64,000 bases of DNA from contig JAKZAN010000005.1 of assembly GCA_023053545.1 (NCBI GenBank), forward strand, positions 7,440,001 to 7,504,000, in the 5' to 3' direction. This document shows positions 11,733 through 20,200 of this stretch, in pieces. Within the stretch, counting starts at the first letter, position 1. Every line of letters begins with the position of its first letter. Below the pieces are notes generated by a model. The model worked only from the letters and a program-made list of their open reading frames with translations, was not told the origin of the DNA and did not search any database. This DNA comes from Lepidurus packardi. Its lineage: Eukaryota > Arthropoda > Branchiopoda > Notostraca > Triopsidae. A program made the translations under genes and the position numbers.

Positions 11733-14700
11733 TTATTCCAACGCAGCCAGGGTAGCGATGGCTTCAGTAATTTGCTGAATCTCAGTCTCAAGTTGGATCT
11801 CTTTTGCGCTATCAGCAGTCTGGACTTCTTGGGGCACTTTGGTAGTGTAATTGGGCACTTGCATAGCCGCTTGCAACTTAGTCAACTGGGTTTTTAACGT
11901 ATATTGCTTACTCGATAATTTGGCTGTTTCTTTGCTTACGTCAATCAAACCCTACAAAATCCAAAGCTTATTCCTGAACAAAGAACTAGGAGTAAATTTA
12001 CCTTCAGGACTAAATGGACTTCGCATCGATCTGAGACAGTCACTATGGCGCATCCAATAGGTACGTCATTCGTAATTTTCACAAGGGAACAGTACGCTAG
12101 AGTGGAAATAACGCCGCTAAACTTGCTAAGGAGAGGACCAGCCTCCTCTTTGCACCTCAAATACACTGAAAAGACGCAAAAATAAATAACATAATTATAA
12201 GTACTAATACTTTTACTTACATTCCGTTTTAGTCTTGTTGGGCAAGTTATAACTCGCTCTTGTGGAACGCACAGTATGGATTACGCGTTGAACAAATTCC
12301 CATTCGCTTTCCAGTGTCTCATCTCTCCATGTATACTATAAACGGGACTGAATAGAGGAAAACCCAAAATTTCTTAACCACAGAATTACTTCTGCATCTG
12401 AGGGGTAAGGCGTCACACAAATAGAAGGTGGACAATCGGTTTTTCTCCTTGGCAAACGCTGGTACAATTCCTCGGAAAGGAAAGGCATGAAGGGTGAAAT
12501 TAAACGTAAGGCTGTATCTAAGCAAGCGTATAGCACATGTCTGGCAGTATTAATTGCTGCTTCATCAGTTCCTTGGAATACGGGTTTTAGATATTCCTAA
12601 AGCCGAACCAAATTCATGAACTTTACTCAGTATGAAGTGCAATATGAAATAAACCTACCAAGTAAACGTCGCAAAGATCGTATAACCAGAAATTGTAGCA
12701 AGCAGTAGTAGCTTGAGGGAAATCATACGATTCGAATCCTTTGTTGCACGCCGTTACGGCTAAGGAGAGTTTGCTCAGAATCCACATATCCATCAAACTC
12801 AAGCCAGATGGCCACTGAAATACAATAGCATGTGATAAAGTAAAGTAATTAAATGAAAACAAAGTAAACTAAGTAACAAAGTAAACAATTGAAAGAAAAC
12901 TAAAAAAAATGAAGACAAGCAAACTAGGACTACAAGTTTTCATCCAAAAGTAGGGAAAGCAACTGTTTGGCGAGCAGATGCTTCACCTGTAACGATTGTG
13001 ACTTTTCCACATGATTCCCCTGCAGATTTTCGCCCATTCGACGAGCTATGTGCATACTCCAGCGAGAGATGTGTTGGCATTTCCAAAACTTGGGGTGAAT
13101 TTCGCCATCTCTTGTCACTAACTTTTCATCGAACAACAAATTCCACAGACTGCGATCATGGGAGGCCATAACATAGCCTTGGACGTAGCTATGTTCCTCC
13201 AAGTAGCCATTCAATTGAGTGAAGAATTGAGACGGGTTGGAGTAAAGTAGTTGGGTGTCCAAACACCAGAAAAATTCCGGACGTACAACGGAAGAAACTC
13301 CACTCACCATTCCCATTTGAGACGAAGGAACGAAATCTTGGCCTAAGTACATCATTGCGAAGCGTGTGGCGTTCCACAGTTTGTTGCAGAAGAAACGATA
13401 GCCTTGTACGCGCAGTACATCCAAGTTAATGTCTCGACCTAACAAAAAAAACTAATCAATACATATTAAATTCGTTAAATCCGCTTCGTTAAATATTAAA
13501 ATACCTTGCGCTGTGTACGCGCAAAGAGCAAAACGCAAAGCGTCTGTCCCACACTCAGGTATGCCTTGAGGGTAATCTTCCTTCTGGCCAGCTTTGGCAC
13601 GAGCAACTTCGCTCGGATCCAAATTACTGGAGTCTAATTGTTTATTGAGTTCCTGAAAAACATGAATTGACACTTTGAAACACTAATCTAAAGGAGAATA
13701 GTACCTCAATGGTAATTCCATTGATCACGTCCAAAGGATCGATGACATTTCCCAAAGATTTGCTCATTTTCCTGCCATGGGCGTCACGCACCATTGCGTG
13801 CAAGTATACCTCTCTAAATAATTTTTTTTTAATTGTTATGGGATCTAATTTAAAATAAGTAATTTTAACTTTTTTAAAACTAATTTTAAATAACAATGTT
13901 CAATTTATAAGTATTTTTTATAATTTTATCTAATTTTATTACTTAATCTTGTTTTATTATTTTTATTTAATCATTTAATTACTTAATCTAATTTATTATA
14001 ATTTTTATAACTTTTTTTTTAATTAATTTAAAATAGTTCATCTCACTTGAATGGCAGTTTGCCTAATAATTTTTGCCCAAAAAAGACCATTCTGGCTACC
14101 CAAAAGAACAAGATATCATGCCCCGTCTCCAATAGACTTCCTGGATAAAATGCACGGAGTTCTTCGGTCTACACATCATAACTTCAGTTTTAAGAACGTT
14201 AAGAATGTATGAATAATTTTACGTCCTCTGGCCAGCCAAAGATGGAGAATGGGAAAAGTCCAGAAGAAAACCAAGTATCCAGTACGTCTTCATCTTGCTT
14301 AAGATGAATTACATCAAGGGCTACTCCAAAGCGTTGAGCAGCATTTTGGCGAGCTTCTTCTTCGGTTCGGCCACTCACCCAAAACTTACTATCAGCTTCG
14401 TCTCCCACTGGGGCATTGGGGACATTGATTTTAACGAAATAAGCTGGTATTCTATGACCCCACCACAACTGCCGCGAAATGCACCAATCCCTACAACAGT
14501 CGCAATAAAATTATTAACTCAGAGTGACTTGAATGCTTTAAGTAGAAATTGCCTAATGTTTTCCATCCAATGGAACCAGGTCTTTTTGTGATTTTCCGGA
14601 ATGATCTTAAGCTCCCCAGACTTGACGGCATCGATGGCTTTAGCGGCCATATCATCACATTTGACATACCACTGGGGTTTAATCAAAGGTTCAACGATAT

Positions 14701-17251: not shown

Positions 17252-20200
17252 TCAAGATAATGATTGTCTTTTGTGGAACAAAATATGATTCTCCAATGAC
17301 TGTCTCGTTGTGAAACCCGCGTCGCAAAACTCACACACAAACGGTCGAGGTTGAGCATGAGACGATAAATGCTGCTTTAATTCCATAGAATTCATTCCTT
17401 GCTTCCCACACAAATCACAACTGGCGCTCGCCGCCATTGAAACGCTGGGGAAGCTCTCATTTCTCGTTGCGGTCCCTGCTCTCGAGGCCATATATGCTAA
17501 TATAGTCTGCTTTTCTTTGACCCAGACAGGATTCAATTCCGCGTAGCTCATCTGAGAAGAAACTCGAGGTAAATTCAAACTAAAAGACGTTGGAGTAGGG
17601 AAATCCAAACTTAGGCGAACTTGACTGTTTTCAGGTCGCTGATACGAGGGATACCTGCTGTCCAGAGGTTTGGATGGTTTGTGCGTTAACGGATTCCACA
17701 GTGTCGTTATTGAGGTCGTGGAAGGAGGAGCACAGTTCGCAGAGGATATTAGAGATTGAGGTGCTGACGGAGTATTAGCTTGACTGACGACACTACTGGT
17801 ATTGGTACTATTGGAAGAGCTGCTAGCTACTGCTTGAGGGGGGTGTTTTTGCAACACGTGGGCTCGGAAAGCTTCGTTGTTTGCGCACACTTCTCCACAG
17901 GCTGAACACAGACAAGCCGAGGCTTTGTCCATATCGGGAGGATACTCATACCTCGGTTTGCTGGGCAACTGACGGATTTCCAAGGCACAATGGCTTCGAG
18001 AAGGTTCCTGGTAGTAGTTAGACGGTCCTTCGGCTAATGGACCGCGGATCACACCAGAATTGATCGGAGTCACGCTCACACGTGAACCAGCTGTTCCAGG
18101 TCTCTGTTGCAAGTGATTTTCCACCGTATTACTTCTAACAGAACTACTCGTGGTCACCGCAGTGGAATAGGTAACTGTTGTAACTGACAAAGAACGGGAA
18201 TTCGGGAAGCCGTTGGCGTGGTCCAGTGCATACTGTACAGTTTTACTAGCCAATGTTGTCTTCTTGTCTTCACTTTCGCGTGAAATGCTATGGTTGGGTG
18301 GCCACACTTTGCTACGGTGCTCTAAAGAGCGCTCGATATCCGGACAAGGATCAGGTAAAGGCTCAGGACAGGGTGCACCGTCTGAATCTTCGCCATCTTC
18401 GACTTCAGCGTCAGCGTCCACGTCATCTACTTCGTCCAAATCTTCGGAAGATCCACTGACTGTTCTACTACGCTGGACTTCGGCTTGCCATTGCTGTAGC
18501 TTGCTAGGATCTTGTCTATAGAGCCGTTGAGCCAAGGACTAAATCGCGAAGAAACATGAGAACAGTGGTTTAAGACAAACACTTAAACAAAGCAACAATA
18601 GAAGCAACTGTTAAAAACGCAGTTTACCTGCAGACTTTCCAAAGAATTCTGACAATCGGTGGTGTCTATTTCATTCAGGTTCATGCCTGAGCGCTCCATT
18701 TCCGCATAAGTTCCAAACGGCAACTTGCCCAGGCACTCTAATTTCATGATGTGCATTTTGGACCGTAAATGCTTAGCCAAGTGTCCATGAATCCGAAAAG
18801 CTATTAAACAATCCGAGCATTTGAATGGTCTCGGATTCTCCGTACTGGGCGTCCCAAAGGTCAAATTCATGTTCACCTGAAACCCCAATCGAAAAAAATG
18901 TAAACAAAATTAGGTAAACAACAAAATTTGTTACCTTATTGAAGTGGCTAACAGACCGCTTGTGTTTCTGCAAGTGTCCTTTGGTGCGGAACGAGACTGC
19001 GCAAGCATCACAACGAAAAGGACGCTCGAAATAATGGATATTAATATGAAGTCGCAACTGCGAAGGCTTGGAGAATACTTTGTTGCAAATACTGCACGCA
19101 GTTTTCCCATCATCAGTCACCCTAAACACAAAAATTTGTATTACATTTGAACTTTTTTCTTTAAACATCTCTTCTCAAATGACAATGACGAACCTATAAG
19201 CTGAAGGGGCCATAGCCGCACTAGAAGGCAATAAAAACTCGGCCCGCGGTTTCCCAGACGTCCCTTCGGCAATGACTAAAGGTACAGAAGTCTGCGCTCG
19301 CATCATGTCTGTTGGCACTTGCATTTCTTCACAAACCTCCATCGTATTGCTGCTGAAAGCCTCATTATGCGTAATTTCGACTTTGGGGAAGGGCAGGAGA
19401 ATAGAACTTGCTGTTACCGTACTCGAACTCGAGTTGGGTTTCGACAACGTTACTGACATCACCAAGGAAGGCCCTTTCAGATGTACCGGCGAATGTTCTG
19501 CTACTCCTGGTTGTTCCAAGTTTGTCTCCATTTGTATCAAGGGTTCTTTCCAATGATTGCGCTTAACTTCAACTTCTTTGCACGCCTTTTCAGTCAAATA
19601 CATTTGAAGCATGTCACTCTGACCGGTGGTCGTCAAAGGAATCGTTGTGACCGTCGCAATCACTGCTGGTGCTCCAGTGGACGAGACAATCGATGGTACG
19701 CTCGGAGACGGGAGAGAAGAAGTCATTGCGGTTTCTGAATTGCCTTGGGCCATGGTTGTCACGAGCGTTGTTGTCTCGTCAACGCGCGGCGTTTTGGCCG
19801 GAAAATAGTAGCGCGATATACTCGCACTGGAGCAAACCATGACAGAGTCCTTGGCATGAGAAACCGAGTCTTTGAAGGCTTGCGACAATTCTGGTCCTCC
19901 CACGTAAGGGTACGTATTAGGCTTCATGCTCAGAGGAGCAATTAAGCCAGCATCTGCAGCAGCTTTAGCGTTTCGCAAGGCGTCAGGTACATTACAGGCG
20001 CTCTGCAAATCCAGCAAAGAATGTGCCACTTCCCGCTCGGTTTCATCCGCATCTTCAAACTGGTCTTCTTCCTCGTCATCCTCTTCGTCCTCTTCCTCAT
20101 CTTCATCCTCTTCCTCTTCGTCCATATCCACGTCTGAATCGCCTTCGCCTAACTGGGCTTTTAGCTTCCGTAGACTTTCCTGTTAAAAGCAACCAAAGTT

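Follow-up and report, generated by a model that had tools for sequence, protein, structure and literature searches.

Human cysteinyl-tRNA synthetase (CysRS, CARS1) reportedly receives an elongation-factor-associating domain through alternative splicing, as described by Kim in 2000. In the accessible parts of later sources, the GST of CysRS 'complexes with eEF1 gamma' and that of valyl-tRNA synthetase (ValRS) 'complexes with eEF1H' (table in PMC6321835), and a splice variant of CysRS inhibits EEF1G (PMC9166799). According to the available text of a 2015 review, vertebrate ValRS enters the eEF1 complex via an N-terminal GST that was reported to need EF1B-beta; the GST-like domain of ValRS could, in the same text, be confined to deuterostomes (PMC4394549). 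The structure 5DQS, as presented in the accessible portion of PMC10452860, contains the N-terminal (GST-like) domain of EEF1G crystallised with the N-terminal domain of eEF1Balpha. Here we describe a ValRS gene of Lepidurus packardi in which exon 12 can be extended by 107 codons for a GST-C-like domain of the eEF1Balpha type; the gene lies in the window, i.e., the whole stretch of 64,000 nucleotides that was analysed (contig JAKZAN010000005.1, positions 7,440,001 to 7,504,000).

The explanation that we favour, with a probability of about 0.6, is that an alternative 5' site of exon 12 adds an eEF1Balpha-type domain, gained once in the pancrustacean ancestor and thereafter retained as an optional module, and that the long ValRS docks to eEF1B. 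Splicing at the inner donor would give the ordinary ValRS, and splicing at the outer donor would add the 107-residue helical domain in the link from the catalytic core to the helices that bind the anticodon. The long isoform would then bind the eEF1B complex, most likely through the GST-like domain of eEF1Bgamma, since the insert is akin to eEF1Balpha. A spliced fraction of ValRS would enter the eEF1 complex, the short form would remain free, and the delivery of charged tRNA may be affected.

The ValRS gene, of the cytosolic enzyme, occupies positions 16461-11733 on the minus strand of the window, its 17 exons being positioned from splice sites plus protein similarity. The protein matched the Pfam families tRNA-synt_1 (residues 109-737, E 2.4e-147), then tRNA-synt_1_2 and Anticodon_1 (890-1042, E 3.6e-37), so that the class I catalytic core, the editing domain and the anticodon-binding domain of a ValRS follow in order. 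The 16 introns comprise 15 of the GT-AG type and one of the GC-AG type, and 14 of them measure 50-77 bases. The gene's only non-GT intron is intron 7 (14491-14552, minus strand), with the GC donor TAG/GCAATT at 14552 (slashes mark splice borders) and a normal AG acceptor. Exon 12 can end at ATG/GTGAGT (exon end 13308) or at CAG/GTGAAG (exon end 12987); both donors are in phase 0 and in frame with exon 13 at 12814, and the predicted proteins comprise 1060 or 1167 residues, respectively. Intron 12 has 493 bases in the short form, where it is the longest of the gene, and 172 bases in the long form. The relevant features are:

ATG 16461 to TAA 11733, minus strand: ValRS gene, 17 exons (splice sites and protein similarity; Pfam)
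13308..13438, minus strand: constitutive part of exon 12 (acceptor ttgttag/GTC, donor ATG/gtgagt)
12987..13307, minus strand: optional 107-codon extension of exon 12, GST-C-like (eEF1Balpha type) domain (profiles, composition, predicted fold)
13302..13307, minus strand: first donor GTGAGT, for the short isoform (sequence; reads Val-Ser if retained)
12981..12986, minus strand: second donor GTGAAG after CAG, for the long isoform (sequence)
12930..12932, minus strand: TAG stop reached without use of either donor (open reading frame, ORF, 12930-13451)
12659..12814, minus strand: exon 13, acceptor common to both isoforms (tatttcag/TGG, phase 0)
13017..13235, minus strand: domain core, insert residues 25-97 (AlphaFold2 helices; Arc1p_N_like match 25-88)

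The donors, exons and stop had been placed at these coordinates by the original prediction, made by a model from the letters alone, and all of them proved correct on the minus strand. It had also described the N-terminus of this ValRS as lacking a GST domain, in agreement with the absence of any GST family match at E <= 1 in residues 1-108.

The extension consists of exactly 107 codons free of stops. Its guanine plus cytosine (GC) content (0.455) is that of the ValRS exons (0.453), in comparison to 0.255 for the other introns and 0.308 for the remainder of intron 12, so the shift in GC sits at the second donor. A stop-free run of 107 codons occurred in a fraction of 5e-5 of 20,000 simulated sequences modelled on the other introns and in 0.9% of simulations based on the extension's own dinucleotides. 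The open frame of the extension is more than chance.

When used alone, the window insert gave 19.7 bits (E 0.0011) against Pfam Arc1p_N_like and did not reach the curated cut-off of 27 bits, a threshold that Pfam set for a related family, called after Arc1p, and that does not define eEF1Balpha. The single window ORF had a sole match in the PDB, eEF1Balpha ('Elongation factor 1-beta', 5dqs_D), at E 1.1. The identity of the domain became firm because the inserts of relatives supplied a profile. Built from 45 inserts, it found 5dqs_D (the eEF1Balpha N-terminus) in the PDB at E 3.1e-19, followed by AIMP3 (1.3e-8), after which came EPRS and AIMP2 (1e-5 to 4e-5) as well as many GSTs and synthetase-complex proteins. 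At E <= 1, 39 of the 45 inserts matched Arc1p_N_like (best 1.5e-6), and four GST_C families were matched by 17, 11, 11, and 6 of them. Positions L36, G44, D51, R82, and W83 are invariant or nearly so.

The profile of the other inserts, with the window row excluded, placed the window ORF first (E 7e-12) among 2804 ORF segments from the window and seven loci picked for GST-like or eEF1B genes, the second being the eEF1Balpha exon of the same genome on contig C6 (E 1e-10). The profile of 49 hexapod inserts recovered 13 of 15 crustacean inserts including the window's (9.7e-8) and none of the 57 short proteins (i-E < 1e-3), and the crustacean profile without the window sequence found 43 of 50 inserts, the window's included. 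AlphaFold2 modelled the 107 residues alone with a mean predicted local distance difference test (pLDDT) score of 78.7, exceeding 90 in the core, and with helices at 25-38, 49-60, 72-76, and 78-97. In its model of the full-length long form of the Daphnia group the insert helices (779-791, 802-815, and 825-837) lie between helices 731-755 and 845-866. The predicted fold is a helical GST-C without a thioredoxin half, as in eEF1Balpha. The GST-C kinship that the original prediction had read from the extra segment is upheld by the PDB profile search and the ORF ranking.

The closest known domain is the N-domain of eEF1Balpha (EEF1B2; 5DQS), the insert's best profile match, which is likewise short and GST-C-like and has the pattern LNxYL...SYxxGY...D...RWxxHI. 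There it forms the N-terminus of a nucleotide exchange factor, whereas the insert is internal to ValRS. The genome of L. packardi encodes both eEF1Balpha (C6) and eEF1Bgamma (C2), as seen from the translations and a family search. Its eEF1Balpha is a separate gene (C6:5,175,691-5,176,827, by eye; locus L028), the domain of which is interrupted by an intron within the Gly codon of SYVQGY, where the ValRS insert has none. A recent copy of the eEF1B gene of the same genome was rejected as the source: in the genome searched (108.6 Mb, 344 contigs), the insert's match at E <= 0.001 was itself alone (two candidates scored), no insert-like match being found elsewhere, and phmmer of the insert against the ORFs of loci L001-L014 gave nothing below E 0.5 except itself.

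For the distribution of the insert, 7989 ValRS homologs were scored and the best 120, a biased sample, were compared. At the same place as in the window, two anchors are separated by 76-162 residues in 63 of the 120 and by 3-16 residues in the other 57; the ends of the insert differ widely in length among relatives. An oddity private to one species was thereby ruled out. The original prediction knew of no such architecture, a view that has to be corrected: it is widespread in crustaceans and insects, and public records contain it in the form of longer predicted isoforms. Crustacean carriers were the Daphnia group (P0050), which the window adjoins in a tree that FastTree built from the ValRS core, the barnacle Amphibalanus and a clade of 11 proteins adjoining the barnacles, likely copepods. 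Insect carriers belonged to Odonata, Orthoptera, Phasmatodea, Blattodea (plus roach-like proteins), Psocodea, Thysanoptera, Hemiptera, and Hymenoptera, the orders being taken from the species names. The carrier groups also hold proteins known in this sample as short forms only (e.g., Diploptera, Lycorma, and Pollicipes). Among the 120, the insert was not seen in Diptera, Coleoptera, Neuroptera, a centipede, a scorpion, Lingula, a nemertean, and two vertebrates; these absences are provisional and no proof of loss because of the biased sample. Searching the protein database for matches to the window's insert region (42 candidates, none at E <= 1) and to the Daphnia-group insert (itself alone among 42 candidates) gave nothing besides the self-match, so the spread described here rests on the survey of whole ValRS homologs.

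In the clade adjoining the barnacles all 11 listed ValRS carry the insert and have no short partner among the best 120 (P0056, P0057, P0069, P0075, P0078, P0079, P0081, P0113, P0114, P0116, and P0117), and the insert may be constitutive there. Two of them, P0056 and P0057, additionally carry PF00458, which we take to be WHEP.

Inclusion by splicing, which the original prediction had proposed, is supported by the records of relatives. Isoform pairs of the same species were compared whole, and the insert was the sole difference in 10 of 12 (Anabrus, Periplaneta, Bacillus, Amphibalanus, Cephus, Neodiprion, Venturia, Athalia, Nasonia, and Chelonus). The pairs of Copidosoma and Phymastichus differ elsewhere too and match exactly around the insert; a second Amphibalanus pair, compared around the insert only, matches there. 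The 1131-aa Daphnia-group protein with the insert has source contigs of <= 3530 bases, a size that points to spliced transcripts. Many long forms stem from contigs of 3.5-4.0 kb that barely exceed the reading frame, as would fit spliced transcripts, and a few from longer ones. By analogy with these relatives, both isoforms are probably used in L. packardi. The start of the insert was examined in 23 long proteins (out of 63) with a short partner of >= 80% core identity. In five it begins with Val-Ser, as expected if a GTNAGY donor is retained and translated (one case, P0018, being one of five equal gap placements with a partner from another species), and in one, from the Daphnia group, with Ala-Ser, which would fit a GC donor.

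Predicted isoforms of valine--tRNA ligase from the barnacle and from insects such as Anabrus, Periplaneta, and Nasonia show the same insert at the same site, usually as X1, next to an insert-free isoform, usually X2. They differ from the present case in being database entries already, with neither domain nor function described in the titles and abstracts found by a literature search. That search, limited to titles and abstracts since most subscription papers were outside its reach, brought up no account of an arthropod ValRS with an internal GST-C domain. In human CARS1, alternative splicing supplies a synthetase with an elongation-factor-associating domain, linked to eEF1 gamma; the two in-frame donors of L. 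packardi and the isoform pairs of its relatives suggest that inclusion may be optional here as well. The two cases differ in that CARS1 is a human CysRS with the domain at the N-terminus, whereas the host of the insert is a ValRS of insects and crustaceans, in which the domain is internal. Vertebrate VARS1 is a ValRS with a GST-like protein-binding domain and a member of the eEF1 complex, but its GST is complete and N-terminal (GST_C at residues 101-189 in Protopterus), a region without a GST match in the window protein.

This distribution is most simply explained by a single gain in Pancrustacea and a loss in the line that holds flies, beetles and the lacewing, and the shared optional domain suggests an old switch tying ValRS to the elongation machinery. 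Several observations weigh against parts of the favoured explanation. In codon log-odds the insert frame scores 57.4, above the two other forward frames, but one reverse frame reaches 58.3, and codon usage by itself is therefore indecisive. The profile of the 11 copepod-like inserts found only 26 of 53 and missed the window (E 7.3). In 17 of the 23 comparisons (13 hymenopteran, two barnacle, two roach-like) the insert lacks the retained-donor start; an alternative 5' site is thus not shown for all groups, and the hymenopteran exon may be built otherwise. As for the partner, the vertebrate ValRS precedent leaves subunits of eEF1B other than gamma possible. Finally, Drosophila ValRS is given as two polypeptides arising by alternative splicing, the site not being stated in the accessible part of PMC4826098, which may count against a loss in flies.

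Other readings have to be set against docking to eEF1B. The insert could be a real, expressed GST-C-like domain that attaches ValRS to the multi-synthetase complex, at the GST-like domains of AIMP2, AIMP3, EPRS or MetRS, an alternative that we regard as unlikely but as the leading one. AIMP3, EPRS and AIMP2 are of the same superfamily, serve docking among synthetases and come next among the PDB matches; Foldseek of the insert against the PDB, with nothing at E <= 0.001, ranked AIMP3 top, and VIA-align had the parasite GluRS N-domain, AIMP2, EPRS, and AIMP3 near the top. According to the accessible text of PMC4394549, C. elegans ValRS sits in a synthetase complex. The domains of AIMP3, EPRS and AIMP2 are terminal in their proteins and match the insert profile more weakly (1.3e-8 to 4e-5), eEF1Balpha being favoured by more than ten orders of magnitude in E-value. 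The same text reports no stable ValRS association for other synthetase complexes, Arthropoda being named, although this negative is tempered by its arthropod example of known make-up, Drosophila, from a group where the insert was not seen in the sample. We give still less credit to a local role without a partner, in which the expressed insert would be a spacer or a regulatory cap altering tRNA binding or activity of ValRS. Its place in the Daphnia-group model, between the first helix past the catalytic core and the next helix of the anticodon domain, and the greatly varying ends would suit such a role; the conserved L36, G44, D51, R82, and W83, in contrast, fall in the pattern common to eEF1Balpha and AIMP3, and in other synthetases such modules are protein-binding domains, according to PMC4394549, PMC10452860, and PMC6321835.

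The remaining alternatives concern the reality of the long form. That intron 12 holds a decaying copy of the domain, the open frame being a leftover and the short isoform alone being used in L. packardi, seems improbable: the first donor, GTGAGT, is near the general consensus and codon usage alone does not single out the insert frame, but the 107 codons are open with exon-like GC and a clear domain signal, and long-form records exist in relatives. A chance intronic ORF without GST-C kinship deserves hardly any credence. Although the stop-free run is not very rare under the insert's own composition, the window ORF heads the ranking of segments with a profile built without it, and the insert has the same place as in relatives. 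A chance ORF or a dead piece of intron was accordingly ruled out by the ORF ranking, the composition and simulations, and the hexapod and crustacean cross-profiles.

A broader statement, to which we assign even odds, would be that ValRS gained the eEF1B N-domain once in ancient times, that a pancrustacean splice switch sets the share of ValRS in the elongation complex in convergence with vertebrate VARS1 and its N-terminal GST, and that a loss in the fly/beetle lineage let Drosophila hide it. Counter to a restriction to deuterostomes, a comparable module is found inside the ValRS of many insects and crustaceans, at another position and optional by the isoform records. What is new is a putative splice-inserted elongation-factor-associating domain in another enzyme, position and animal group than in the CARS1 case known before. 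Conclusions based on Drosophila may mislead, as the insert was in none of the flies, beetles and the lacewing among the best 120. The title of a 1995 paper, cited in PMC4394549 and PMC2813244, reports that Artemia ValRS associates with EF-1. The best 120 of 7989 homologs included no ValRS from Artemia; should that animal's enzyme have the insert, the association would gain an explanation. How arthropod ValRS associates with EF-1, and whether splicing tunes the channelling of charged tRNA to the elongation factor, become testable questions.

A second, divergent ValRS gene of several exons, probably of the mitochondrial enzyme, lies at C2:10729116-10730861 (43-80% identity per piece). The small contigs C277 (L013), C268 (L023), C208 (L033), and C53 (L035) carry long ORFs for eEF1Bgamma, eEF1B, and ValRS unlike the animal's genes, and probably represent sequence of other eukaryotes and of bacteria within the assembly. 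The ValRS match on C208 (60% identity) spans two TAA and one TAG, stops that, judged by the sequence, could reflect a ciliate-type code. Many COX1-like stretches with in-frame TGA (e.g., L018, C6:697216-698424) are probably nuclear copies of mitochondrial DNA because they are located on large contigs; one such copy, translated with the invertebrate mitochondrial code, looks arthropod. In the window, the upstream neighbour of the ValRS gene (17252-20182, minus strand) is apparently a large gene of the C2H2 zinc-finger type whose long exons encode acidic and serine-rich stretches, presumably resembling a schnurri/HIVEP-type factor; of its three ORFs searched with Pfam, two had C2H2 fingers and the acidic one a weak YL1 match.
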